From Altererythrobacter sp. (GTDB taxonomy: Bacteria > Pseudomonadota > Alphaproteobacteria > Sphingomonadales > Sphingomonadaceae), in assembly GCA_013002295.1 (NCBI GenBank), contig JABDKI010000041.1, positions 1 through 42,291 of the forward strand: a DNA stretch of 42,291 nucleotides, in the 5' to 3' direction. The notes beneath the pieces are model-generated. The model saw only the letters and a program-made list of their open reading frames with translations, had not been told where the DNA came from and did not search any database. Made by a program: the position numbers and the translations under genes. Of this stretch, positions 570 to 16,329 are shown one piece after another (the stretch's first letter is position 1; the number at the start of each line of letters is the position of its first letter).

Positions 570-2331
570 GCGCAAATTCTCCCAAAGCATCGCGCAATGG
601 GCCTAGCCAAGGTCCATAGGCTTTCCAAGCGCTGATGCCCTTGCGATTGAGCGGCTTGCGCACTTGCTCACTGCTCGCGGTTGCAACGGGTTCTTTGGAA
701 AGGTGGAACTCAAGCACTTGCGGCTCGAACGGGATATCGATCGCTGAGAACATGGAACTGGTCTCACTCTCGGCTGAATCCACCAAAGCTTCGTAGCCCT
801 GAAGATGGATTCGCCCCGGGAAGCGTCGTGACAATGTGTCCGTCTGGCGAACATAATCCCCGTAAAACAGGCCGATATCGGATAGATCGCTGGCGGCTGG
901 ATGCCCTCTGGCGAACAGCGTCTTGAAGTTTGACCAGCAACAATCCATCGCGTCGCGCCGAATGTCTATGATGCGCGCCTGTGGCAACATGCGCAGGATC
1001 AAGGGCAAATGGCGCCAGTTCATGTGAAGCTTGTCGACAAAGAAGCCGGCATTGGTCTTCATGCGCTCTTTCGCGCGAGCGACATACCATTGCCCCATAT
1101 TGGCAAGAGCGGCATCGCTCAGACCTGCGATAGCCTGTTCTAGCTTATCCTCGCCTGCATCTTGGCGCAGCCGATCGACCATATGCGGCACGATAGAGAG
1201 TTCGCCTAACGCCTCGATGCCGGAGTGCTGGCCCAACATCCTCTCGACCAAGGTTGAGCCGGCTCGCGGCATACCCAGAACGAAGATCGGTACTGGCTCA
1301 GCGGGGTCGGGCCTGTGCGCAGATGGTTCTGGATCGTCCCCTAGTGCGCCAAGGTATCGATCAACTTGCGATGTGATGTCATGCGCGTCATAGGGCTGCG
1401 CCAGGCGGCGAAGCCTGTTGCCCGCTGCGAACTGAGCAAAGGCCTGTTCAGCCGCACCTTGTGCGTCGTGCGCAATGCCCAGCGCGAAATGAAGATTGCC
1501 AGCGTGCTCGGGCTGGTCACCGCGTTGTGCAAGCGCCTGCTCAATCTGCGTGACATCACCCGCTGTAAGGACAGATGCATCCAGATCAGCAAGACTCCAC
1601 CACGCGCGGCCATGACAGGGATCCTCTGCAATCGCGCTACGATAGGCTTCCGTGGCTTCTTCACGCTTGCCATCAAAACGCAGGCTGTCGCCAAGGTTGG
1701 TCAGCGCGTCGGGTGATCGCGGATCGAGCCGAACCAGTTCCCGATTGGCCTTGGTCGCGGCAGCATAGTCACCGCGCTCAGTGTGAATGCGCGAAAGCAG
1801 ATTGACCAGCTCGGCATCATCGCGGCGTTTTTCAGCCACTGGCTGGATGACACGCAAGGCATCGGTCAACCGATCGGTCAGCATCAATGCATTAGCATAG
1901 AGAATGCGCGCACGCAGGAAACCCGGGGCGCGGCTGAGCACTTTTTCCAGCATAGGCAGCACTTTGTAGGCTACGCCCAGCGCAATTCCGGCCTCCGCCG
2001 ACAGTGTCAATGCGGCCAGATCATCGGGTTCATGCTGCAAATGTTCAGCCAAGATCCGGCTGGCTTCGCCAAATTCCTGCGCAGTCATCTGCTGTGCGGC
2101 CTTGGTCAGCGCCGGCACCGCAGAGCTGTGATGGATAGCGGCGATTTCTGCCTGCTGTGCTTCAGCGGCCTCACCTAGCTCTCGGTGTGCAGCTGCCGCA
2201 GTGCGCAAGAGCCTGGGATCGCTAGGCGACTGTTTCAAGCGCCCTTGCGCCTCCGCCAGTACAGAACGGATGTCGGCTTCACTCTTACCGGAAGTTGCAT
2301 TCCCGTTAGTCACGATGTCATGCTCATTCAT
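562..2331 (-). CDS. TPR-repeat sulfotransferase family protein
   Basis: ORF 562..2379 with likely start MNEHDIVTNG at 2331; N-terminal TPR-like helical repeats, then sulfotransferase PAPS-binding motif FVLGMPRAGSTLVERMLGQHSGIEALGEL. Confidence 0.88.
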   Translation of the reverse strand: MNEHDIVTNGNATSGKSEADIRSVLAEAQGRLKQSPSDPRLLRTAAAAHRELGEAAEAQQAEIAAIHHSSAVPALTKAAQQMTAQEFGEASRILAEHLQHEPDDLAALTLSAEAGIALGVAYKVLPMLEKVLSRAPGFLRARILYANALMLTDRLTDALRVIQPVAEKRRDDAELVNLLSRIHTERGDYAAATKANRELVRLDPRSPDALTNLGDSLRFDGKREEATEAYRSAIAEDPCHGRAWWSLADLDASVLTAGDVTQIEQALAQRGDQPEHAGNLHFALGIAHDAQGAAEQAFAQFAAGNRLRRLAQPYDAHDITSQVDRYLGALGDDPEPSAHRPDPAEPVPIFVLGMPRAGSTLVERMLGQHSGIEALGELSIVPHMVDRLRQDAGEDKLEQAIAGLSDAALANMGQWYVARAKERMKTNAGFFVDKLHMNWRHLPLILRMLPQARIIDIRRDAMDCCWSNFKTLFARGHPAASDLSDIGLFYGDYVRQTDTLSRRFPGRIHLQGYEALVDSAESETSSMFSAIDIPFEPQVLEFHLSKEPVATASSEQVRKPLNRKGISAWKAYGPWLGPLRDALGEFAHD

Positions 2332-3109
2332 AGCCCAGGATCGTGCGGAGGCCCGGGCTTGCGAAGTCGACCATCGCACGCTGTTGCTGGCTCAGCTCAT
2401 CGGGGAGAGAGGTGATCTTGCCCGACAAGTTCTGCTTGGCCGTACCGCTGTTCGCAGGGTCTGAACCGATCTTCACCCGCGCACGCCAGTCGCTTGGCAT
2501 GGCGATACCGCAAGCCTCAAACAGATCGCGGAAATATGCCTCTGACGCGGGCGTTTCCAAATCACGGAGCGCAGCTACCAGCTCTTCATATCGTACCAGG
2601 TGAACACCGGTGCCGAGCCACGCCACTGCGTTGTGGGCATAGGTTTCCTTTAAGGCAGGCAGGGCGCGTGGAATACCGAAAATGACCATGCTGATCAGGT
2701 CATCAGCGCTGATCGGAGCTGACTTCAACATTTCAAGCTCGCCGGTAAACTCGTCGGAGAGCATGAAGCGCGCCTTGGAAAGCACCCAGCTATAGGGATC
2801 GCGCACCAGCAGCAGTTTGCGCGCGACGCTAGTCGAAATGGCGGAAACGTCCGAATGGAACAGGTGCCCCCAGCTCAGTTTGGCTGGCGGGCCATCAAAT
2901 GCGGCCAGATGATCACGCAGGTTTCCGTACTGAATGAAATCGCGGTCATAGTGCTGCTCGACCGGGACAAACATTCGGATGATATTGCGCAGCAAATGGC
3001 TGCCTGACTTTGGCACTGAGTTCAAAAACAGATGCTGTTCCAGCGGCGCTTGCTCGAATTCAGCATTGCGCGCATTCAAATCGTCAGGTTTCAGGTGAAT
3101 CTCAGGCAT
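2324..3109 (-). CDS. Sulfotransferase domain protein
   Basis: 261 aa; 5'-PSB-like motif NSVPKSGSHLLRNIIRM and LLVRDPYSWVLSKARFM; stop overlaps the start of the TPR-sulfotransferase. Confidence 0.8.
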   Translation of the reverse strand: MPEIHLKPDDLNARNAEFEQAPLEQHLFLNSVPKSGSHLLRNIIRMFVPVEQHYDRDFIQYGNLRDHLAAFDGPPAKLSWGHLFHSDVSAISTSVARKLLLVRDPYSWVLSKARFMLSDEFTGELEMLKSAPISADDLISMVIFGIPRALPALKETYAHNAVAWLGTGVHLVRYEELVAALRDLETPASEAYFRDLFEACGIAMPSDWRARVKIGSDPANSGTAKQNLSGKITSLPDELSQQQRAMVDFASPGLRTILGYE

Positions 3110-3207: not shown

Positions 3208-6200
3208 TTAGAACTTCGCGCGGGCTTGCAGGAAGGCGCGACGACCAAGGAAGTCATACTGCGATGCCTGCGGCACATTTGCGAAAGCAGTCACGAGACC
3301 GGAAACCTGCGGGGGTTCTGTATCGAACAGGTTCGCAACACCCAGCGTGATCTCAAAGCGATCATCGTCGAAGCTCTGCGTGATCGAGGCATTGTGATAC
3401 CAGACTGCATTCGTGCGCGGCACGACACAGTATGGTTCGCCATAGACCACCTCGAACGAAGGTGTTGGGTTACACAGACCGCCGAAGTCTTCGATGTAGT
3501 CTGCTTCACTCGACGAGGCGCCGATAACCGTGACACCATAGAGAAGTGTCGTGTTACCCTTTTCCCATGTCGTGATGAGATTGCCAGTGAACTTGGGATC
3601 GCCAACGTCACCGTTCAGTTTCTCATCTTCTGTCAGGTTTGCTGCATCAGAACCGAACGTAATGATCTGGTCCTTGGTTTGCAGTGTCGCTTGGCCAAGC
3701 AATGACAGTTCACCCAAATCACCAAGATCGTGGCGAACACGCAGGGTAAAGTCGATGCCCTTGTTGCTCTGTTCGTCAATGTTGATGAACTGACGGTTCA
3801 CGAAACGAATATTGTTGATGTCGCCATCCTGACCGCGCTCGAAGAACGAACAGAAAGGATTGTTCGGGAAATCAACCGAATCGTAGCAACCTGACACGAT
3901 CTGGAATGGATTGAGTTGTGAAATCTCACCTTCAACCGTAATGTCGAAGTAGTCGATCGTCAGCGCGATGTCCGTATCCGGCAAGAAGTCGAATGACGGT
4001 GTCAAGATCATGCTAGCCGTAAAAGCAGTCGACGTTTCCGGTTCAAGTACACCCAGACCGCCTGAAGTGAATACAGATACCTGAATACCTGCACCCGTGT
4101 GGTCAGCAGGAATACCAGTGGCTGGACCGTTCAGGAAGCTCTGGTCGGCCTGGCAATTGGTTGCGATACGCTGTGTGATCGTGCCGTCATCCAACTGTTC
4201 CTGCCAGCGGACACAAGGGTCCACATTACGCTGACGCGCACCGCTTGCCTGACTGCCAAGGAATTGCTCGAACAAGGCTGGTGCGCGGTAAGACGTACCA
4301 TATGTCGAACGCAGACGCAGCCAATCGGTCACGGTCCAGTTGCCAGTTAGCTTGTAGGTCCAGTTGCCGTTGCTGGCGTCGCTACGGCCATCGGGAGCGG
4401 TTGCGCTCACATTGGTGACACGAGCAGCGGCCGAGATTTCAAGGTTCTCGACCAACAGCTTGTCGCGGATCAGCGGAAGGTTGATTTCGGCAAAGGCTTC
4501 CTTCGTCGTTGTCCGGCCGCGAGTGGGCGTCGACGAGAAGTTGTTCGCAAAGCCGTTATCGACAAAGTCATCCGGATTGTTCGGATCACCACCTGGAACC
4601 AACGCATTGGTAATATCGCCTGGCGTATCATCGATCTCGTCGCGCCGAATTACCGCACCCAGAGCGAAGCCAAACGGACCAGCGGGCAGTTCGAACAGCT
4701 CGCCAGAAACAGACGCTTCTGCAAACATTTGCTCGTAAATTGTTACGCCAGTCTCCTCACCGACCAGATACTCGACTTCCTCGGGAGTGAGGTCACCGGC
4801 CATGACCCGCGGATCAACCCAGTTGATCTGCAGGCACGGCTTGTTCTCGATAGCTGTAAACAGTCCGGCGCAACCGTATCCATAAGCACGATCAGTCTGC
4901 TGTGTGATACTGTCCTGCAAGATTTGCTGCAGAGTGTATTTGCCTTCAGACCGGCTGTATTGGCCATGCACATCATAAGACAACTTGTCTGTCAGGTCAC
5001 CACGAACGCCGAGGACACCGCGATAGTAGTCGACATCGATCCAGTTGTCGTATTGATCGAGGATACCAGTCGGGCTGATGAAAGCTCCCAGACCGCCAAA
5101 AGAAGTCCAACCCGGGAACGGATCGTCCGGATCGCCCGGAGCATAAAGGTCTGTGTAGCCGAAGTTATAGAACTGCGAGTAGGTATCAACATAAGTCTCG
5201 CGACGGTTGAAAAGCCCTTCCGCGTAAACTTCCACGCCTTCGGTCAGTTCGAATGCCGCATCGGCATACAGCGTGAAACGCTCGGTTTCCGGAATGACAG
5301 TGCTGGCCTGCTCAAACGGGTGATAGGCGTTACGCAGAATGTATGCGTTAGGGTCTTCATAGCTGACCGCGAACCAGCCCGGAGGCGTGATTACGTTGCC
5401 AGGATTGACCGCAGGGCCGGGAGGTGGAATGAAATTACCAAGGTTATCGTTACCATAGCTGAACTGCAGCAGCGAGACGATGGTTGGGTTGAAGAAGTTG
5501 GGATCCTGATCCTGAAGGTTGTCTGAGAAATATGTCCATACATGGCCCCAGAGCGTTCCATTCGGGCAGCCCAGTTCGCCTGTTCGCGGATCGATCAGAT
5601 CAAGCCGACGCTGGCCATCTTCGCTGAAGACATAATCTTCAGGACAGCCAAGGAAATCGCGGTCCTGTCGCTGCAGTTCGCGCTGCTTGTAATAGTCGCC
5701 TGCGAGAAGGATGTGACCGCGGTCAAACTCCTTGCCCCAGGCAAGGCTTACGCTGGTTTCTTCACCGCCTTCTTCGAAAGTTTGCGAACGGAAGAAATCG
5801 AACTCAAGACCATCCGTCTGCTTTTTCGTCCGAATGTTGACCACACCTGCCACAGCGTCTGAACCGTAGATCGAGGATGCGCCGTCTTTGAGCACATCAA
5901 CTTGCTCAATGATAATGCCCGGCAGAACGTTGAGGTCAAAGGCCGAAACAGCACCACGCGTACCAGCGGGGCCAGCGCGGCGGTCATTCAGCAAGACGAG
6001 CGTACGTTCTGCACCCAGTCCACGCAAAGACACCGTCTGCGCACCGGGACCACCATTCGAGATGGTGTTCGCAGAGATCGCTGACGTAATCTGGGTCGAT
6101 CCATTGGCAATCGGAGACTGCTGGATGATTTCCGCAGCAGAATTCAAACCTTGTTTGCGCTGCAAGTCTGGATCGATGATTGTTAGCGGCGAAGCGCTGG

Positions 6201-6411
6201 TCGTTTCATTCCGGCGAATACGGGAGCCGGTAACGATGATCGCCCCCTCGTCCGCTGCCTGTGTGGAATTGTCATCCAAAACCACTGCTTGATCTTCATC
6301 GGCGTCCTGCGCAACCGCTGGCGTTGCCAGCGTGATGGCCAGGGCCGAAACCCCGGCGCTGGTCAGCCAGCGCACGGCCTTTGGATCCGAGAATCCGGCA
6401 CAACTTTTCAT
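3208..6411 (-). CDS. TonB-dependent receptor, outer membrane
   Basis: ORF 3208..6465, likely start MKSCAGFSD at 6411; signal peptide, plug-domain sequence (IIVTGSRIRRNETTSASPLTIID...AERTLVLLNDRRAGPAGTRG...IEQVDVLKDGASSIYGSDAVAGVVNI) and C-terminal aromatic beta-barrel end ...FLGRRAFLQARAKF. Confidence 0.95.
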   Translation of the reverse strand: MKSCAGFSDPKAVRWLTSAGVSALAITLATPAVAQDADEDQAVVLDDNSTQAADEGAIIVTGSRIRRNETTSASPLTIIDPDLQRKQGLNSAAEIIQQSPIANGSTQITSAISANTISNGGPGAQTVSLRGLGAERTLVLLNDRRAGPAGTRGAVSAFDLNVLPGIIIEQVDVLKDGASSIYGSDAVAGVVNIRTKKQTDGLEFDFFRSQTFEEGGEETSVSLAWGKEFDRGHILLAGDYYKQRELQRQDRDFLGCPEDYVFSEDGQRRLDLIDPRTGELGCPNGTLWGHVWTYFSDNLQDQDPNFFNPTIVSLLQFSYGNDNLGNFIPPPGPAVNPGNVITPPGWFAVSYEDPNAYILRNAYHPFEQASTVIPETERFTLYADAAFELTEGVEVYAEGLFNRRETYVDTYSQFYNFGYTDLYAPGDPDDPFPGWTSFGGLGAFISPTGILDQYDNWIDVDYYRGVLGVRGDLTDKLSYDVHGQYSRSEGKYTLQQILQDSITQQTDRAYGYGCAGLFTAIENKPCLQINWVDPRVMAGDLTPEEVEYLVGEETGVTIYEQMFAEASVSGELFELPAGPFGFALGAVIRRDEIDDTPGDITNALVPGGDPNNPDDFVDNGFANNFSSTPTRGRTTTKEAFAEINLPLIRDKLLVENLEISAAARVTNVSATAPDGRSDASNGNWTYKLTGNWTVTDWLRLRSTYGTSYRAPALFEQFLGSQASGARQRNVDPCVRWQEQLDDGTITQRIATNCQADQSFLNGPATGIPADHTGAGIQVSVFTSGGLGVLEPETSTAFTASMILTPSFDFLPDTDIALTIDYFDITVEGEISQLNPFQIVSGCYDSVDFPNNPFCSFFERGQDGDINNIRFVNRQFINIDEQSNKGIDFTLRVRHDLGDLGELSLLGQATLQTKDQIITFGSDAANLTEDEKLNGDVGDPKFTGNLITTWEKGNTTLLYGVTVIGASSSEADYIEDFGGLCNPTPSFEVVYGEPYCVVPRTNAVWYHNASITQSFDDDRFEITLGVANLFDTEPPQVSGLVTAFANVPQASQYDFLGRRAFLQARAKF

Positions 6412-6771
6412 GAGTTTTCCCCTGTCGGGCTGATAAGCATCAGCTAAGTGTCCAATGTTCGCCAAAAAAGGCTTTCAGCCCATTCAACGTTCAGTCCCGA
6501 ACTTTGACTAGACTACAAAATCACCCATTCCGCAAGGCTCTCCAGTCACTTATGACATAATGAAGGGTTTGCTGTGTCTCGGCGGCAACACGCGCATGCC
6601 GCGGGAAGGGTCAACATGTAACGGCATCCGTTCTATCATAATGGTTTCACTACGAATTGGTTTGGGGCGCTAGTCAGAATACGATACTTCTTTGGGAAGA
6701 AAACGCCTACTGGCCATGCGGCGAGAATGAGCCCTGCACCAAGCAGCTGGTTACGAAAAAGGACATGCTCA

Positions 6772-7866: not shown

Positions 7867-8062
7867 ACGCAAGTGCACGCCATACCTTGGGCGTCGACAT
7901 ATATCGCGCCAGTTCGCCTGGTTCAGACTCATTTCCTCGCGAAAGAAATGGAGACGGTCACAGCTCAACAAGACCGACAACAAAACCAAGCACTAGCTTG
8001 TGGCGATGCTTTGTGTTGGTCTAACACTGTGCGCGGAGACTAATCGTCGGCAGCTATTCCTG

Positions 8063-9907
8063 ATGGCGATTTCACTGGACGGGGGATTTGGCGGCGTGAG
8101 CAATGATCTGGCAAGTGATTGCTTCCGGCCACGCCTCGCGTTGCGGTTCGGGATTACGGGGCATCGGCCACCGCGGCTAAAGTCAGAACATCACCAGCAT
8201 GTCCGCGATCACTGCGCGCAGTTGTTCGAACTGGCTGCCAAATCGCTCTCTGACATTGTCGAAGAGCATCCCGGCATTTTTTCATCTGAGCCGGCCGAAA
8301 CTGTACTAGTTTCATCGCTCGCAGAAGGAGCAGACGTTCTTGCTGCGGAAGCTGCGCTGGGAAGCGGTGTCCGTTTGGCTGCATGTTTGCCATTTCCCGC
8401 CGAAGTATATGCAAAAGACTTCGGTGAAGTTGAATGGCGCAGCACGTCCTCTTTGCTTGATCAGGCGCAATCGGCCATGGCGCTGGCTGACTTCAATGGC
8501 GGTGACGAGGCGGCATATGAACACGCCGGGCGCCTCGTTCTCTCGCAATCGGATATATTGATCGCGGTTTGGGATGGAGAAGCCGCGCGCGGTAGAGGAG
8601 GGACCACGCAAGTTATTGCAGAAGCGGTCGCTCTGCATCAGCCGGTCATCCATATCGATGCCTCCGGAAAATCGCCTCCTGAATTGCTGTGGAGCGGTTT
8701 GCACGATGTTGTGCCAGACCGCCCGTCATTGGACGGCGTAGAGCGAACCGACGCGAAAGAAGCGTTGCCGCGACTGATCCACGCGCTTTGCGCACCGCCT
8801 TCAGGAGAGGAGCAGGCTGCGCTTAGAAAATTCGTTCAACCGCATCCCGACAGAAGTGAACGCCATTTTGCGTGGCCGGCGCTTTTGGCTGCAACAGGCG
8901 CTAAGAAGTTGCGCAAAACCTCTTTTCACCCTCCGAAACCGAGCGACAGCGTGGAATCTTTGCGCAATCATGTGGGGGCTTTCGCGGGGCAAGAGCGTTT
9001 TGGGGCACAATTGACTGAAGAGGTTGCGCGCCGGTTTGGACGGGCAGATGCCGAAGCGGGCTATTTCGCGCTGCGTTTCCGATCAAGTTTTGTGGCCAAT
9101 TTTGCCTTGGCTGGTCTCGCGGTCATGCTAGCCTTGTCAGGGCTGTTGTTCCCCGACGGGAAGAAATGGCTGATAACGGCTGAGTTGATCGTCATTCTGG
9201 TGATTATCATCAACACGCACGGAGCCAACCGGTCAAATCTCCACCAGCAATGGCTAAATCTGCGCCACCTGGCAGAGCGACTGAGGCTGCTGGCCATGTC
9301 TGCGACGCTTGGGCAACTTTCTCTTAGAGCGGTGGAAGATGGCACAACGCAACCTGGCTGGGTTAGTTGGTACGCCAGAGCGACCGCGCGAGAATTGGGG
9401 CTGGCGGGTCAAACATACGACCAAGCCTACCTCACTAAGGTACGCGCATCGATGCTGGAGCTCATTGATGATCAGGCGAGTTATCACGAAGCGAATGCGC
9501 ATTCGATGCATCACGCCAATCATGCGCTGCACCGGATGGGCGACGCGTTTTTCGTCGGCACGATTCTGGCCTGCCTTGCCTATCTTGGCACAGCAATTTT
9601 TGTTGGCAAGCCGGGCAACCTCGGCCCCTTCGGCGTGACAGAATTGGTCACTTTTGCAACCGCACTTTTTCCGGCTCTCGCTGCAGCGCTCTACGGCATC
9701 AGGATGCAGGGCGATTTCGCTGCGACAAGCGAACGATCAACGGTCATCGCCCGACAACTTGCTCAGCTGCGCAGCGCGATCGAGCGCGATCCACTAAGTT
9801 ACGAACGGCTGATTGATCGTTCGCGCAGGCTTGGCGAGATCATGCTGGCTGAAATCCACCAGTGGCGCTTGCACTATGAGACGCGTCCACTGAGCCTTCC
9901 GGGTTGA
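8063..9907 (+). CDS. Orphan SLOG-like nucleotide-binding domain fused to a SLATT-like transmembrane region (hypothetical membrane protein)
   Basis: ORF 8000..9907; start uncertain (8000, 8063 or a later GTG). N-terminus has RFGITGHRPPRL, VLVSSLAEGADVLAAEAAL and SDILIAVWDGEAARGRGGTTQVIAEAVALHQPVIHID (Rossmann/SLOG-like). C-terminal half has two TM hairpins with the W-x-x-L-R-x-L-A-E-R-L-R pattern after the first. Confidence 0.65.
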   Translation: MAISLDGGFGGVSNDLASDCFRPRLALRFGITGHRPPRLKSEHHQHVRDHCAQLFELAAKSLSDIVEEHPGIFSSEPAETVLVSSLAEGADVLAAEAALGSGVRLAACLPFPAEVYAKDFGEVEWRSTSSLLDQAQSAMALADFNGGDEAAYEHAGRLVLSQSDILIAVWDGEAARGRGGTTQVIAEAVALHQPVIHIDASGKSPPELLWSGLHDVVPDRPSLDGVERTDAKEALPRLIHALCAPPSGEEQAALRKFVQPHPDRSERHFAWPALLAATGAKKLRKTSFHPPKPSDSVESLRNHVGAFAGQERFGAQLTEEVARRFGRADAEAGYFALRFRSSFVANFALAGLAVMLALSGLLFPDGKKWLITAELIVILVIIINTHGANRSNLHQQWLNLRHLAERLRLLAMSATLGQLSLRAVEDGTTQPGWVSWYARATARELGLAGQTYDQAYLTKVRASMLELIDDQASYHEANAHSMHHANHALHRMGDAFFVGTILACLAYLGTAIFVGKPGNLGPFGVTELVTFATALFPALAAALYGIRMQGDFAATSERSTVIARQLAQLRSAIERDPLSYERLIDRSRRLGEIMLAEIHQWRLHYETRPLSLPG

Positions 9908-9942: not shown

Positions 9943-10719
9943 TTAGGCGCTACATCCCTTGCATGCTGCATCCTTTGCGATGGTGAGGGTGCGCATGCCG
10001 GGTTTCATCCCGTCCAAAATGTGCAGCTTGCCGAATTGCGGATCGCCAAACGCGCTCACCCCTTGGAGCAGCGCGCGCACGGCCTGCATTGCGCCGAAAG
10101 TGCCGGCCCATCCGGCCATTGCGCCCAGCATTCCGTCCTCAGCGCAGGTGTCGCAGTCTTCTGCGTCGAAAGCGTCACCTACGAAACAGCGATAGCAGGG
10201 CTGGCCAGGCAAGTGGCCTGCAAAGGCACCGACTTGACCCTGAAAGCGACCCACGGCGGCGCTGAGCAACGGAACTCCTGCAGCAACAGACGCATCTGAT
10301 ACGGCGAGCCGGGTGGCAAAATTATCTGTCCCGTCAAACACAAGATCAGCGTCGCCGATCAGAGCCCCAGCGTTGTCCGAACCAATGCGGGTGTCGCTGA
10401 TCTCGACCTGCAAGGTTTCGTCAAAGTTGGCGAGCCAGCGTCGCGCACTGGTGGCCTTGCCATGGCCGACATCACGGCTGGTGAAGATCGTCTGGCGCTG
10501 CAGATTGCTGGCATCGACTGCATCGTCATCGATCAGAGTGAAGCGCCCGATCCCGGTTGCAGCGAGATATTGCAGGGCAGGGGAGCCAATGCCGCCAAGG
10601 CCTACGACCACAATATGTTTCTGCGTCAGCGCGACCTGCCCAGCGCCGCCGATCTCCGGCAATACAATATGGCGCGCAAAACGGTCCAAACGCTGTGGAG
10701 AGAGCGGTGCAGAAGTCAT
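9943..10719 (-). CDS. moeB: ThiF/MoeB/HesA-family adenylyltransferase
   Basis: RFARHIVLPEIGGAGQ, VVVGLGGIGSPALQYLAATGIGRFTLIDDDAVDASNLQRQ, DNFATRLAVSDA, plus zinc-binding CYRC...CDTC and CKGC cysteine pairs. Confidence 0.88.
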   Translation of the reverse strand: MTSAPLSPQRLDRFARHIVLPEIGGAGQVALTQKHIVVVGLGGIGSPALQYLAATGIGRFTLIDDDAVDASNLQRQTIFTSRDVGHGKATSARRWLANFDETLQVEISDTRIGSDNAGALIGDADLVFDGTDNFATRLAVSDASVAAGVPLLSAAVGRFQGQVGAFAGHLPGQPCYRCFVGDAFDAEDCDTCAEDGMLGAMAGWAGTFGAMQAVRALLQGVSAFGDPQFGKLHILDGMKPGMRTLTIAKDAACKGCSA

Positions 10720-10727
10720 GGGACAAG

Positions 10728-10771
10728 CTGTTTACAGCCTGTGCACAGCCTGTCGACAGCCCTGTGAATAG
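10728..10771. repeat. Array of 10-bp palindromes CTGTNNACAG at 11-12 bp spacing
   Basis: CTGTTTACAG (10728-10737), CTGTGCACAG (10739-10748), CTGTCGACAG (10750-10759), then a degenerate CTGTGAATAG (10762-10771), in the dnaA-moeB intergenic region. Confidence 0.8.
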
Positions 10772-10816
10772 AGCTGTCGATCAATCCGGGCATTTCATGT
10801 TGAAATTGTGTGCGAA

Positions 10817-12280
10817 TTAACTCTCTAGCTGGCGCAAGAGGCTGCGTACGTCGCCGTCCATATCCGCATCGCGTTTGCGCAAATCTTCGATCAGGCGCAC
10901 TGCGTGGATAACCGTCGAGTGATCGCGACCACCAAACTTGCGGCCGATTTCAGGATAGCTGCGCGGCGTGAGAACTTTCGACAGATACATCGCTACCTGA
11001 CGCGGGCGAACCACGGCACGCGCGCGGCGCTTGGATGACATCTCGCTGCGGTCGATCCGATAGAATTGGCAAACCGTCCGCTGGATTTCGTCGATCGTGA
11101 TCCGGCGTCGATTAGCCGACAGGATATCGGTCAATTGTTCTTCCGCAAGATTCAGCGAAACTTCTTGTCCCGTCAGCTGGGCATAGGCGATCAGCTTGTT
11201 AAGGCCGCCCACCAGCTCGCGCACATTGCGTGTGATCGTGCGAGCGAGAAAATCGACCACATCGTCCGGCACGTTCAGAGGCGCGAAACGCGACAGTTTG
11301 GAGACGAGGATCTTGCGACGCAGTTCTATATCGGCGGGCTGAATATCTGCCACCAAGCCCATCGACAAACGGCTCAAGAGACGTGGCTCCACCCCGTCTA
11401 GCGCTTGGGGTGCACGGTCAGCAGCGAATACCAGGCGCTTGCCTTCAGCGAGCAGCGCATCAATCGTGTAGAGCAGCTCTTCCTGAGCGCTCGCCTTACC
11501 AATAATGAATTGGATGTCGTCCACCAGCAGCAGATCAAAACTGCGCAGGCGCGCTTTGAATTCGATCATCTGGTTAGCTTTGAGCGCCTGGACAAACTCG
11601 ACCATGAAACGCTCTGCGCTGCAGTAAAATATGCGCGCGCGGGGGTGCGCCTGAAGATAAGCGTGACCGATAGCGTGCAGCAGGTGCGTTTTGCCCTGGC
11701 CGGTCGCGGCCTTGAGATAAAGCGGCGAGAACTGCGGCTGCTCGGTTGCGGCCATGCGCTCTGCGGCATTCTTGCCCAAAATGTTGGTTTCACCGGTTAC
11801 GAAGGCGGCAAACGTCAGTGAGGGGTCAAGGCCCACGGAACTGGTGAAGCCAGCTTCGCCAATGGTTCCAGCTGCAACTGCGATGGCGCTGGTGTCCGCA
11901 TCATTTGCAGGGCGACGGCCATTGTCGAGCATCAGCTCAGGCAGTTGGCGACGGCCCGGGTGAACAGAGATGCGTACCTTGCGAACTTCGCTGCGCACAA
12001 TCTTCCAGGCGAGCTGCAAGCGGTCATGAAAACGATCATTGACCCAGTTAGCGCTGAATTCGGTCGGGAGGAAAAGATCGAGTGTGCCCGATTCCTTGCA
12101 TACACTGCCCAGCTGGATTGGTTTTATCCATTGGCTGTGCAGTTGGTGGCCCAAATCCTTGCGCAGGCCCTGGCTAATGTCAGCCCAGTCTGCAGCCAAG
12201 TTTACGGCTTCTGCATCTTCCATCAAATCTTCATCGATCTTGCGCTTTGTCGAACTGCCATTGTCATTATTTTGCGCCAT
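10817..12280 (-). CDS. dnaA: Chromosomal replication initiator protein DnaA
   Basis: Likely start MAQNNDNGSSTKRKIDEDL at 12280; LYLKAATGQGKTHLLHAIGHAYL (Walker A), LLLVDDIQFI (Walker B), C-terminal GGRDHSTVIHAVRLIEDL DnaA-box binding signature. Confidence 0.97.
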   Translation of the reverse strand: MAQNNDNGSSTKRKIDEDLMEDAEAVNLAADWADISQGLRKDLGHQLHSQWIKPIQLGSVCKESGTLDLFLPTEFSANWVNDRFHDRLQLAWKIVRSEVRKVRISVHPGRRQLPELMLDNGRRPANDADTSAIAVAAGTIGEAGFTSSVGLDPSLTFAAFVTGETNILGKNAAERMAATEQPQFSPLYLKAATGQGKTHLLHAIGHAYLQAHPRARIFYCSAERFMVEFVQALKANQMIEFKARLRSFDLLLVDDIQFIIGKASAQEELLYTIDALLAEGKRLVFAADRAPQALDGVEPRLLSRLSMGLVADIQPADIELRRKILVSKLSRFAPLNVPDDVVDFLARTITRNVRELVGGLNKLIAYAQLTGQEVSLNLAEEQLTDILSANRRRITIDEIQRTVCQFYRIDRSEMSSKRRARAVVRPRQVAMYLSKVLTPRSYPEIGRKFGGRDHSTVIHAVRLIEDLRKRDADMDGDVRSLLRQLES

Positions 12281-12630
12281 TCCCCAACCCAATACCTCTT
12301 TATCCTCGGAGTCGACCCGAGGTTGCATTTTTGCCCAAAACTTGGCCAAGCTTCGCCATTGCGCGGAGTCACCTTCTCTGCGCTTTGCCCCTGTGTCCAA
12401 AACTGTAAATGTCCGAGATGTCCCGCCTCAGACAGCTATGTTTTATGAAGCTCTAACGCTTAAGCGCAAGGACGTTTTCGTAAAAAAAGCGAAATATTTC
12501 GGTTGACTCGGCTCTAACCCGCAGGCTTGCGTTGATGTCGTTGATATACCTACATTTTCGCGATTTGAGCGATGCGAATCGTGGAAAGTCCTAGGTTTAG
12601 CGCTATCGGCCTTGTCGCACGCCGCGCAAA

Positions 12631-12668
12631 ACAAAAGGGCCGCACCCGTATCGGGCCGGCCCTTGTGC
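12631..12668 (-). terminator. Rho-independent terminator of rpsT
   Basis: AAGGGCCG (12635-12642) / CGGCCCTT (12657-12664) stem with ACAAAA on + (TTTTGT on -) at the 3' side. Confidence 0.7.
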
Positions 12669-12714
12669 ATGTTTCACGCAATTCCGAAGCGCCGTTTGAC
12701 GCCTCAACGCCGAA

Positions 12715-12975
12715 TCAAAGTGCAGCGACTCGCTTCGAGAGGCGCGACATCTTGCGAGCAACTGTGTTCTTGTGCATCACGCCGCGAGCAACGCCGCGCG
12801 CCATTTCAGGCTGTGCAGCTTTCAAAGCTTCGGCTGCCGCCGCCTTGTCGCCTGCTTCGCATGCTGTTTCGACTTTCTTGACGAAACCACGGATACGGCT
12901 GACGCGCGCGGTGTTTACGTCCGCGCGGCGATTGTTGCGACGAATGCGCTTCTTTGCTTGTGGCGAATTGGCCAT
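12715..12975 (-). CDS. rpsT: 30S ribosomal protein S20
   Basis: [36 protein letters not shown]...[22 protein letters not shown]; start at 12975. Confidence 0.97.
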
Positions 12976-13115
12976 GTTTGTCCTTGCTTCTCGATCACCC
13001 AACGTGACCGGATCTGAATTATCTAGTGTGTTCGAAAACGGCGATTCACTGCCGGAAAGGCGCGCACATAGTCCTGCCCTCGCGAATCGTCAACCTATTC
13101 TGGGGGAGTGATAGC

Positions 13116-13931
13116 CTACTTTTGGCACCTGGCGCAGAACCATGTGCTGCGTCCGCCTTGAGCAAAGCGGCGGATGATGCCGCCATCTTCGCGGCGGCAA
13201 GCTTCTCCCTCGCGTCCATAGACATCAAAGCGTGTGGCAAAATAGCCGAGTTCGCCATCCGGTGCAGCGTAATCGCGCAAGGTAGAGCCGCCATCATGGA
13301 TCGATTGAGTGAGCACTTCCTTGATATGCGGAACAAGCCGATCAAGCTGGGGCCTGGTCACTTTGCCGCCAGCCTTGCGGGGATGAATCCCCGCGCGCCA
13401 AAGTGCTTCGCACACATATATATTGCCGAGACCCGCCACGATCCGCTGGTCGAGCAGGCAAAGCTTGATGGCTTGCTTGCGGTCTCTGAGCGCGGCCTTG
13501 AGATAGGCAGGGTCGAGATCCTCACTCAGCGGCTCTGGCCCCAAGGCGGCAAACGGCGCCCATTCGCCCAGCGCATCTGTCGCGATCAGATCAACCGAAC
13601 CAAAGCGGCGCGGATCGCACAGGGCAAAATGATGGCCACCTGACTCCATGATCAGGTGGTCGTGTTTGTCTGGCTTGGCCGGATCGATCCGCCACCGGCC
13701 GCTCATGCCCAGATGGAAAACCATCGTCTGATCGCGGTCGGTATGGATCAGGCCATATTTTGCGCGGCGCGACAGGCCGGTTACGGTTGCGCCGGTCATC
13801 ACTTGAACCAGCCCATCCGGAAATGGCCGGCGCAAATTGGGTCGATTGAGCACCAAGCGATCGATCCTTGCGCCATCAAGGAACCGGGTAAGCCCGCGAA
13901 CCGTTGTCTCTACTTCTGGAAGTTCAGGCAT
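13116..13931 (-). CDS. mutM: Formamidopyrimidine-DNA glycosylase (Fpg)
   Basis: MPELPEVETTVRGL N-terminus, RRAKYGLI, LGNIYVCEALWRAGIHP, C-terminal GGRSTWFCARCQK. Confidence 0.96.
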   Translation of the reverse strand: MPELPEVETTVRGLTRFLDGARIDRLVLNRPNLRRPFPDGLVQVMTGATVTGLSRRAKYGLIHTDRDQTMVFHLGMSGRWRIDPAKPDKHDHLIMESGGHHFALCDPRRFGSVDLIATDALGEWAPFAALGPEPLSEDLDPAYLKAALRDRKQAIKLCLLDQRIVAGLGNIYVCEALWRAGIHPRKAGGKVTRPQLDRLVPHIKEVLTQSIHDGGSTLRDYAAPDGELGYFATRFDVYGREGEACRREDGGIIRRFAQGGRSTWFCARCQK

Positions 13932-14035
13932 GTTTGTTTGTGTAACCTATGTGCCCAAGGAGATCAGGCTTTCAAATCAGAAATGCCCCATAACACCCTT
14001 TGCCATGCTCGCAATTCATCCTAAGGCGCCCCGCT

Positions 14036-14767
14036 ATGACTGATAAGGTTTCTTTCGGCTACGAAGATGTCGATCCACAAGAGAAGACGCAGCGTGTTGG
14101 TGCGGTCTTTTCCAATGTCGCGCGCAAATATGACATAATGAATGATGCCATGTCTGGAGGTATGCACCGGGTCTGGAAGGACAGGTTCGTTCGCCGGGTC
14201 AAACCGCAGCCGGGCGAAGCCACTCTGGACATGGCAGGCGGCACAGGCGACATCGCCTTTCGCATGGCCGCACGCGGGGCCGAGGTTGTGGTTGCTGACA
14301 TCAATCAGGACATGCTCGACGTCGGTATCGAACGCGCGATGGAGCGCGGGATTGATGGCCTGTCATGGTCGTGCCAGAATGCCGAAACGTTGAGTTACCC
14401 GGCAAACCAGTTTGACGCTTACACCATTGTGTTTGGCATTCGGAACGTGACACATATCGACAAGGCCCTGGTTGAGGCGCACCGCGTGCTGCGGCCCGGC
14501 GGTCGCTTCTACTGCATGGAATTCGGCACGACCGACTGGCCAGGCTTCAAAGAGATCTACGATTTATATTCGCACCAGATCATGCCCAAGCTGGGTAAGG
14601 CGATCGCCGATGACGAAGACAGTTACCGTTATCTGGCAGAGTCAATCCGCCGCTTCCCGCTTGCGCATGTATTCGAAGCTATGATCAAGGATGCGGGTTT
14701 CAGAAATACGCGCGTCGAGAAGATTTTGGGCGGGGCCGTGAACATCCATTCGGGCTGGAAAGTGTAG
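14036..14767 (+). CDS. ubiE: Ubiquinone/menaquinone biosynthesis C-methyltransferase
   Basis: MTDKVSFGYEDVDPQEKTQRVGAVFSNVARKYDIMNDAMSGGMHRVWKDRFV..., LDMAGGTGDIAFRMA, GIRNVTHIDKAL. Confidence 0.97.
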   Translation: MTDKVSFGYEDVDPQEKTQRVGAVFSNVARKYDIMNDAMSGGMHRVWKDRFVRRVKPQPGEATLDMAGGTGDIAFRMAARGAEVVVADINQDMLDVGIERAMERGIDGLSWSCQNAETLSYPANQFDAYTIVFGIRNVTHIDKALVEAHRVLRPGGRFYCMEFGTTDWPGFKEIYDLYSHQIMPKLGKAIADDEDSYRYLAESIRRFPLAHVFEAMIKDAGFRNTRVEKILGGAVNIHSGWKV

Positions 14768-14769
14768 GG

Positions 14770-16329
14770 GTGACAAGACCCTCAACCCATATCTGGCGCT
14801 TGCTCAAGTGGGGGCGCAAGCTCGCAAAGCATGGCGCTTTGCGCGGGATCGAAGCCGATCCTAACGCGCCGGTGCAGGTCAAACGATTGGTTCGGCTTGC
14901 GCGTATTGGCACATTCCAGCCTACGACGCCTGACTATGCAACCGCGTTCAAGGCTATTGGACCAGCGGCGATCAAGCTGGGGCAAACGCTGGCCACACGG
15001 CCCGATTTGGTGGGCGAGGAGGCCGCACACAATCTGCTCGGATTACAGGACGATTTGCCGCCGGTCGCTTTCAGCGAGATTGAAGCGTCGATCGCGGCCA
15101 CTTTTGAAAAGCCGCTGAGCGAGCTGTTTCAGGAAATCGACCCCAAGCCAGTCGGCGCCGCATCCATCGCGCAGGTTCACCGCGCGGTGACAAGCGACGG
15201 CCGCAAGGTTGCCTTGAAGGTGTTGCGCCCCGGCATTCGCGAACAGTTCGCGCGGGATATCGAGACCTATGAATGGGCCGCTGCGCATTTGGAGGCATTG
15301 GGCAGTGACGAAGCGCGCCGGCTGCGTCCGCAGCTTACCATTGCCAATTTCAAACGCTGGACCAATCGCGAGCTTGATCTGCGGCGTGAGGCCGCGTCCG
15401 CTTCCGAGCTTGCGGAGAATATGAAAGGCTTTGCGGGTTACCGTGTCCCGGAAATCGACTGGGATCGCACCAATGGCCGGGTGATGACAGTCGAATGGAT
15501 CGACGGCACAAAGATCAGCAAAGTCGAGGAGCTGAAGGCCAAGGGCCATGACATGGACGAACTGGCGAACCGGCTGGTTCTGGCGTTCCTGACGCAGGCG
15601 ATTAGCGGCGGCTATTTCCATGCAGACATGCATCAGGGCAATCTGTTCGTCGAAGATGACGGCACGATTGCCGCGATTGACTTTGGCATCATGGGACGGA
15701 TCGATCGCCGTGCGCGCCAATGGTTGGCGGAGATATTGTATGGCCTAACCACGGGCAATTACCGGCGTGTGGCGGAAATCCATTTTGAAGCGCAATATGT
15801 GCCGAGCTATCACTCGGTTGACGAATTCGCGACCGCCCTGCGCGCGGTTGGGGAGCCAATGCGCGGCAAGCCAGTGAAGGAATTGAGCGTCGGGCAAATG
15901 CTTGATGGCTTATTTGCGATCACCCGCGACTTTGACATGCAGACACAGCCGCATTTGCTGCTGCTGCAAAAGACCATGGTAATGGTTGAGGGGATCGCGA
16001 CGCAGCTCAATCCCGAAATCAACATGTGGGACACGTCTGCGCCCTATGTGCGCAATTGGGTGCGCGATGAGCTTGGCCCCGAAGCGGCGCTGGCCGACGC
16101 TGTGAAAGAGAATTTCTCGACCTTGCTCAAGCTACCCGATTTGCTGCGCCGGATGGATGAGAAATTCCCGGCCAAAGGCGGTGCGCCAGAAGCGCCCCCG
16201 CTGCCGGAAATCGAGCTGATCGTCGGGCCCACTGCGCCCAAGCGACGCAGCTGGCTGGGCTATGTCGCTGCAGCCGCGGCCGGAGCAGGCGTGCTTTACG
16301 GCGCGACGATGCTCGGCTGGATTGCTTAG
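14770..16329 (+). CDS. ubiB: ABC1/UbiB-family protein (ubiquinone biosynthesis regulatory kinase-like)
   Basis: AIKLGQTLATRPDLVG, KPVGAASIAQVHRAV, GYFHADMHQGNLFVEDDGTIAAIDFGIMGRID; two hydrophobic stretches at the C-terminus. Confidence 0.95.
   Translation: MTRPSTHIWRLLKWGRKLAKHGALRGIEADPNAPVQVKRLVRLARIGTFQPTTPDYATAFKAIGPAAIKLGQTLATRPDLVGEEAAHNLLGLQDDLPPVAFSEIEASIAATFEKPLSELFQEIDPKPVGAASIAQVHRAVTSDGRKVALKVLRPGIREQFARDIETYEWAAAHLEALGSDEARRLRPQLTIANFKRWTNRELDLRREAASASELAENMKGFAGYRVPEIDWDRTNGRVMTVEWIDGTKISKVEELKAKGHDMDELANRLVLAFLTQAISGGYFHADMHQGNLFVEDDGTIAAIDFGIMGRIDRRARQWLAEILYGLTTGNYRRVAEIHFEAQYVPSYHSVDEFATALRAVGEPMRGKPVKELSVGQMLDGLFAITRDFDMQTQPHLLLLQKTMVMVEGIATQLNPEINMWDTSAPYVRNWVRDELGPEAALADAVKENFSTLLKLPDLLRRMDEKFPAKGGAPEAPPLPEIELIVGPTAPKRRSWLGYVAAAAAGAGVLYGATMLGWIA

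Follow-up and report, generated by a model that had tools for sequence, protein, structure and literature searches.

A SLOG–SLATT fusion protein of Altererythrobacter sp. is a candidate membrane effector of a Thoeris-like, TIR-linked anti-phage system

The window, i.e. the whole stretch of 42,291 nt of Altererythrobacter sp. DNA that was analyzed, contains a gene for a protein in which a SLOG domain is connected by a linker to two SLATT membrane hairpins. It probably acts as the membrane effector in an anti-phage system that resembles Thoeris and is linked to TIR genes. Computational analyses established the domain architecture, the transmembrane (TM) hairpins, the linkage of relatives to TIR, channel, and peptidase genes, a patchy and mobile distribution, and the loss in a sister genome. 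The reading frame is intact from the ATG at 8063 to the TGA at 9907 and encodes 614 aa; an alternative upstream GTG at 8000 would yield a product of 635 aa. The features are as follows.

8063 to 9907, forward strand: gene for the SLOG–linker–SLATT–SLATT protein of 614 aa (open frame; full-length relatives; AlphaFold2 pLDDT 82, pTM 0.81)
8138 to 8662, forward strand: YpsA-clade SLOG (Rossmann) domain, residues ~26–200, predicted nucleotide sensor (Pfam, matches of relatives, viral alignment, Foldseek)
8150 to 8179, forward strand: GITGHRPPRL strand-1 loop motif, residues 30–39 (G33 and R35 invariant even in comparison with stand-alone viral SLOGs)
8570 to 8605, forward strand: WDGEAARGRGGT loop, residues 170–181, predicted phosphate/nucleotide-binding loop (invariance in the family and in viral proteins)
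8753 to 8983, forward strand: helical linker between SLOG domain and membrane module, residues ~231–307 (AlphaFold2 helices)
9011 to 9307, forward strand: SLATT hairpin A (DUF4231-like), residues 317–415, two TM helices (NCBIfam SLATT_1; DUF4231 in relatives)
9422 to 9883, forward strand: SLATT hairpin B, residues 454–607, two TM helices (SLATT_1 in relatives; AlphaFold2 helices)
7868 to 9891, no strand: segment missing from the collinear sister genome G795, locus L177 (blastn identity 86–91% on both sides; junction read)
9892 to 9907, forward strand: 16-base 3' end of the gene (..SLPG stop), scar in G795 (GAGCCTTCCGGGTTGA in both sequences)

The gene is flanked upstream by a CaiB-like CoA-transferase gene and downstream by a MoeB/HesA-like gene on the opposite strand, followed by dnaA, so that the neighbours named in an earlier, sequence-only reading are borne out. 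That reading had also seen no nucleotidyltransferase, defence gene, or mobile element beside the gene. Indeed, none of the TIR, channel, trypsin, caspase, WD40, and kinase partner families is present within the window, and by-eye reading of the adjoining ORFs revealed no apparent nucleotidyltransferase or mobile-element gene. An Rfam search beside the gene did not find an RNA, a promoter search for the gene found no match, and a PHROGs search gave no match. The distance to dnaA is ~0.9 kb, and beyond it (up to 16329 in the region 9943–16329) the sequence reads as rpsT, mutM, ubiE, and ubiB; the gene may therefore be located in the chromosomal origin region. Elsewhere in the window, a sulfotransferase-like ORF (2324–3109) adjoins a gene for a TonB-dependent receptor (3208–6465), again by eye.

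By fold, motifs, and the profile matches of its relatives, the protein fits the YpsA/YAcAr clade of the SLOG superfamily. For the window copy alone, the Pfam YAcAr match at residues 57–110 (E 0.027; 14.7 bits vs. a cut-off of 28.2) does not reach the curated threshold, and single-sequence Pfam and PDB sequence searches with it are too weak taken alone. Relatives match the YpsA, YAcAr, and DprA profiles (DprA up to 1.1e-4). The best PDB match of the structural model in Foldseek is B. subtilis YpsA (2nx2; E 1.1e-3, probability 1.00, TMt 0.67), followed by DprA, ShosA, and LOG, and a viral structure library queried with the full model returned SLOG proteins. Stand-alone SLOGs of viral contigs, one of which (L147) exceeds the Pfam YpsA cut-off with 40.8 bits, have the motifs TGHRP, G-x-D, and AVWDG..GGT in common with the window protein, and its alignment with recognized YpsA proteins of viral contigs (A2) contains twelve invariant columns. 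Within the WDGEAARGRGGT loop, W170, G172, G177, G179, and G180 are invariant in a family alignment of 21 members, and W170, G172, G180, and T181 are also invariant when the viral SLOGs are included. The R-N pair that precedes MVD in YpsA-like proteins is replaced by A-G in the SLOG–SLATT family, and therefore its ligand may differ.

The C-terminal half likewise fits the SLATT superfamily by fold, motifs, and the profile matches of relatives. The NCBIfam SLATT_1 match of the window copy is sub-threshold (residues 319–414, E 7.8e-5; 22.6 vs. 41 bits), and SLATT_1 and DUF4231 are each matched by 18 of the 21 aligned members. Relatives exceed the curated SLATT_1 cut-off (46.6, 45.3, and 42.1 bits), with their best stretches in the second hairpin, and the DUF4231 cut-off of 24.7 (25.7, 28.3, and 30.9) on the first, and both hairpins are thus regarded as SLATT-like. 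Four hydrophobic segments are kept in the 21 members (median 19-residue Kyte-Doolittle peaks of 1.9–2.2), and Glu374, inside the second TM helix of hairpin A, is invariant (21/21).

The full AlphaFold2 model (pLDDT 82.4, pTM 0.81), for which the input comprised solely the window protein, one GTDB relative, and viral-contig proteins, shows the Rossmann domain at residues 26–200, linker helices at 231–307, and hairpins at 317–415 and 454–607. Both hairpins are built of long helices, i.e. they have the 2TM form with a long N-terminal helix by which SLATT domains are recognized; the helices of hairpin B span residues 454–514, 525–550, 552–575, and 580–607. When the C-terminal half was modelled alone (pLDDT 71), the top fold matches included several SLATT-annotated proteins of giant viruses, with weak E-values. 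A comparison of hairpins A and B with hhalign detected no repeat similarity, so that the tandem SLATT assignment is based on the individual profile matches of relatives; a scan of viral sequences with the C-terminal half did not find relatives. Profiles and models together thus agree with the SLOG call, the SLATT call, and the two TM hairpins of the sequence-only reading. The motifs quoted there (FGITGHRPPRL, VLVSSLAEGADVLAAEAAL, ILIAVWDGEAARGRGGTTQVIAEA, and WLNLRHLAERLRLL) were all found as written and belong to the best-conserved parts of the family alignment, which has 36 invariant columns including G89, D91, G172, G177, G179, G180, W397, R401, and E405.

The genomic neighbourhoods of the relatives reveal an association with conflict genes, i.e. 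TIR, trypsin, caspase, and K+ channel genes. A TIR gene (TIR_2 search) is found within 6 kb in 19 of the 28 carriers from the same family, with 0.36 expected by chance, and within 10 kb in 20 of 28, with 0.56 expected; the P value of about 1e-30 for this linkage assumes independent genomes, and the genomes are not fully independent. Among the 49 loci on the tree, the fetched stretch contains a TIR gene in 27 cases, a K+ channel gene in 12, a trypsin gene in 11, and a caspase or a Ser/Thr kinase gene in three each. The fetched stretch, which is short for some loci, lacks a TIR gene in 22 cases, and this was counted against the Thoeris-like interpretation. A gene for a small K+ channel (Ion_trans_2) is located at most 250 bp from the SLOG–SLATT gene in 9 of 28 carriers, although there are only about two such genes per genome. 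Genes for trypsin, caspase, WD40, kinase, and PP2C proteins are repeatedly found in the vicinity, and Pfam confirms TIR, Trypsin, Peptidase_C14, Pkinase, PP2C, TIR-FHA, and Ion_trans_2 as partners. The F-I-S-Y motif and the Glu of the W-V-x-x-E motif are retained in 28 of 30 partner TIRs, which therefore look catalytically competent, and one partner exceeds the ThsB_TIR cut-off (42.7 vs. 21.2 bits). An independently annotated beta-proteobacterial plasmid, from Caballeronia, encodes DUF4231, TIR, and WD40 proteins in a row.

The gene had been described as an orphan, single-gene system. This is true for the window copy, but the family usually resides in multi-gene, TIR-linked neighbourhoods. The window genome encodes two TIR proteins, both on other contigs (the assembly comprises 252 contigs and is 88% complete), and an intact channel homologue that is unlinked to the window gene. 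At two loci, a small conserved gene of 124 aa lies between the TIR and the SLOG–SLATT genes (L022, 8641–9015; L002, 9544–9918; the L002 copy has no Pfam match), and a gene of 173 aa occupies a similar position in L026 (8611–9132).

Relatives occur in 37 of the 151 genomes of the family, i.e. the distribution is patchy. Among 61 genomes of the genus, the clade of the window copy was seen only in G000 and G835; the member in G824 falls into a different clade (34% identity), those in G043 and G123 into a third (30%), so that members of the same genus are scattered over separate clades. The G835 copy is full length, 82% identical to the window copy, and located at the same site beside moeB and dnaA, with a K+ channel gene between it and moeB at a distance of 6 bp. 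The gene is not found universally, nor is its inheritance simply vertical, and a universal housekeeping function was rejected in view of the patchy spread and the few members of the window clade in the genus. The collinear sister G795 probably lost the gene by deletion, as judged from the last 16 bases, which were kept as a scar; a recent insertion into the window lineage was rejected for the same reason. The channel gene of G795 has a one-base frameshift, possibly a sequencing error, and is 92–94% identical to the intact channel gene of the window genome.

Several further loci were observed. In G824 (L179, 1711–11736), genes for PP2C, a K+ channel, SLOG–SLATT, and TIR-FHA adjoin genes that read as VirB-type (T4SS-like) secretion, which suggests a conjugative element. 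On a viral contig (L119, 7959–10085), a distant full-length SLOG–SLATT gene (36% identity) follows genes that by eye are phage tail, holin-like, and amidase-like; the site after phage tail and lysis genes is a common place for prophage cargo. A relative in G343 (L106, 9006–11009) is split by a TAA stop and may be decaying. A second, diverged SLOG–SLATT clade (L090–L099; about 30% identity, mostly 640–740 aa) is common in the genus of the window, with TIR and trypsin-like genes frequently linked to it.

The founding paper on SLOG and SLATT is that of Burroughs from 2015. Published predictions have ADPr derivatives regulating SLATT as a membrane effector and cADPR being sensed by YpsA-like SLOG, and phage TIR + SLATT modules were described (PMC9503650). 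SLATT is needed for DRT10 phage defence (PMC12632851), and Thoeris provides precedents for SLOG-sensed TIR signals as well as for membrane-disrupting TM-macro effectors (PMC11204291, PMC12948488). The TIR-linked loci of the family resemble Thoeris in that a TIR gene is linked to an effector composed of a nucleotide sensor and a killing module (PMC11204291, PMC12948488); the sensor is SLOG as in type I (ThsB TIR + ThsA SIR2-SLOG), and the effector is a membrane protein as in type II (ThsB + ThsA TM-macro). In contrast to Thoeris, however, the SLOG belongs to the YpsA clade, tandem SLATT hairpins replace SIR2 or TM-macro (no SIR2 or macro profile matches the window protein), K+ channel, peptidase, and kinase genes are neighbours, and a linked TIR is missing for the window copy. 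With an architecture other than that of ThsA and no TIR linked at the window, the protein is classed as similar to Thoeris in its mode of action rather than as a member of it. SLATT (SMODS and SLOG-associating 2TM effector) is also the predicted membrane effector in other nucleotide-linked conflict systems, namely phage TIR + SLATT modules, SLATT with GAP1 systems, and RT + SLATT DRT10 (PMC9503650, PMC7159879, PMC12632851), whereas in the window protein a SLOG sensor is fused N-terminally to two SLATT hairpins of the same chain.

With the YpsA-like SLOGs, i.e. B. subtilis YpsA and the stand-alone phage SLOGs, the protein shares the fold and the TGHRP...GMALGxD/SLAEGAD...AVWDG..GGT frame, but its SLOG is fused to a membrane module and carries A-G instead of R-N. 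The plasmid-encoded protein WP_165106806.1 (DUF4231 domain-containing, Caballeronia sp. SBC2) has a SLOG-like N-terminus, DUF4231 and SLATT_1 matches over the cut-offs, and TIR and WD40 neighbours, but is only 33% identical over the SLOG part, and its annotated name includes neither a function nor SLOG. PADLOC, which has no model for a SLOG–SLATT fusion, gave ShosA (0.051) as its sole match for the window copy and no match for L178 and L119, and no experiments on a SLOG–SLATT fusion protein were found in the literature. The effector is thus different from the known Thoeris and SLATT effectors, yet of the same general type, and it is absent from PADLOC.

From these comparisons we infer the identity of the signal, the trigger, pore formation, and phage defence. 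A TIR-TPR, TIR-TolB, or TIR-FHA protein would detect the infection and cleave NAD to generate a nucleotide signal, which would be bound by the cytoplasmic YpsA-type SLOG domain. The ligand-bound protein would then oligomerize via its tandem SLATT hairpins and permeabilize the inner membrane, and the cell would be arrested or killed ahead of phage release. The small K+ channel could provide an accessory or an alternative output, as could the trypsin, caspase, or kinase/phosphatase genes that are present at some loci. Having lost the linkage to its partners, the window copy may act with the unlinked TIR and channel genes of the same genome or be a residual stand-alone copy. The sequence-only reading had already proposed an immunity effector, which is partly supported: the SLOG and SLATT domains stand, and the context (TIR, trypsin, caspase, and K+ channel genes, patchiness, mobile carriers) argues strongly for it, but the family is not one of orphan single genes. 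Neither of the two outcomes that would have spoken against this proposal according to the sequence-only reading was observed: the profiles reach both superfamilies, and the gene, besides its uneven and not strictly vertical spread, is associated with conflict genes.

Four other explanations were weighed. The SLOG domain might directly sense a host nucleotide induced by phage or stress and trigger SLATT permeabilization with no TIR involved. Loci without a linked TIR (the window, L030, L031, L033–L035, L100, L103–L104) and the intact genes in G000 and G835, also without one, are compatible with such a stand-alone effector; however, the close relatives L002, L022, L024, and L025 are TIR-linked, so that the solitary copies look derived, and two TIRs are still encoded in the window genome, which together make this option rather unlikely. 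Slightly less probable still is a stress or developmental module (kinase, phosphatase, FHA, TIR, and channel) that controls the membrane potential and does not serve phage defence. It would fit the recurrence of the K+ channel and the STK, PP2C, and TIR-FHA genes in L039, L041, and L179, but less so a patchy, mobile, and clade-mixed distribution, the clean loss in G795, and caspase and trypsin neighbours, which are typical of conflict systems (PMC7159879).

The window copy could also be a relic, i.e. a formerly TIR-linked effector that is partnerless and drifting toward loss as in G795, whose deletion scar and frameshifted channel gene are in line with this idea, as is the absence of a linked partner. 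The intact frame, the 82% identity to the G835 copy over the full length, the conserved residues, and the intact channel homologue in the genome make it very improbable. We give hardly any weight to a membrane-anchored LOG-type nucleotide hydrolase in metabolism. LOG enzymes belong to the SLOG superfamily and the LOG structure 5wq3 is among the weaker fold matches, but YpsA and DprA rank above it, and the linkage to conflict genes also speaks against it. The LOG signature is PGGxGTxxE; the window protein reads GRGGTTQVIAEA, which lacks the leading PG, has GRGGT instead, and contains a Glu187 that is not invariant, and a LOG enzyme was therefore rejected.

The preferred interpretation as a TIR-linked membrane effector can be extended, tentatively and at well below even chances, to an unnamed Thoeris-class system of YpsA-type SLOG and tandem SLATT pores with a dedicated K+ channel, in which the TIR signal, possibly an undescribed ADPR derivative, would open SLATT and the channel would shape or limit the collapse of the membrane potential. 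The recurrence of the K+ channel beside SLOG–SLATT suggests that the membrane potential is the target; no discussion of a K+ channel in a SLOG–SLATT/TIR setting was found in the literature examined. In that literature, SLATT domains are predicted pore-forming effectors with an unproven trigger, and the role of YpsA-type SLOG in immunity is mainly predicted. With SLOG and SLATT in one chain beside TIR genes, the chain of TIR signal, SLOG sensor, and SLATT membrane effector becomes testable with two genes.
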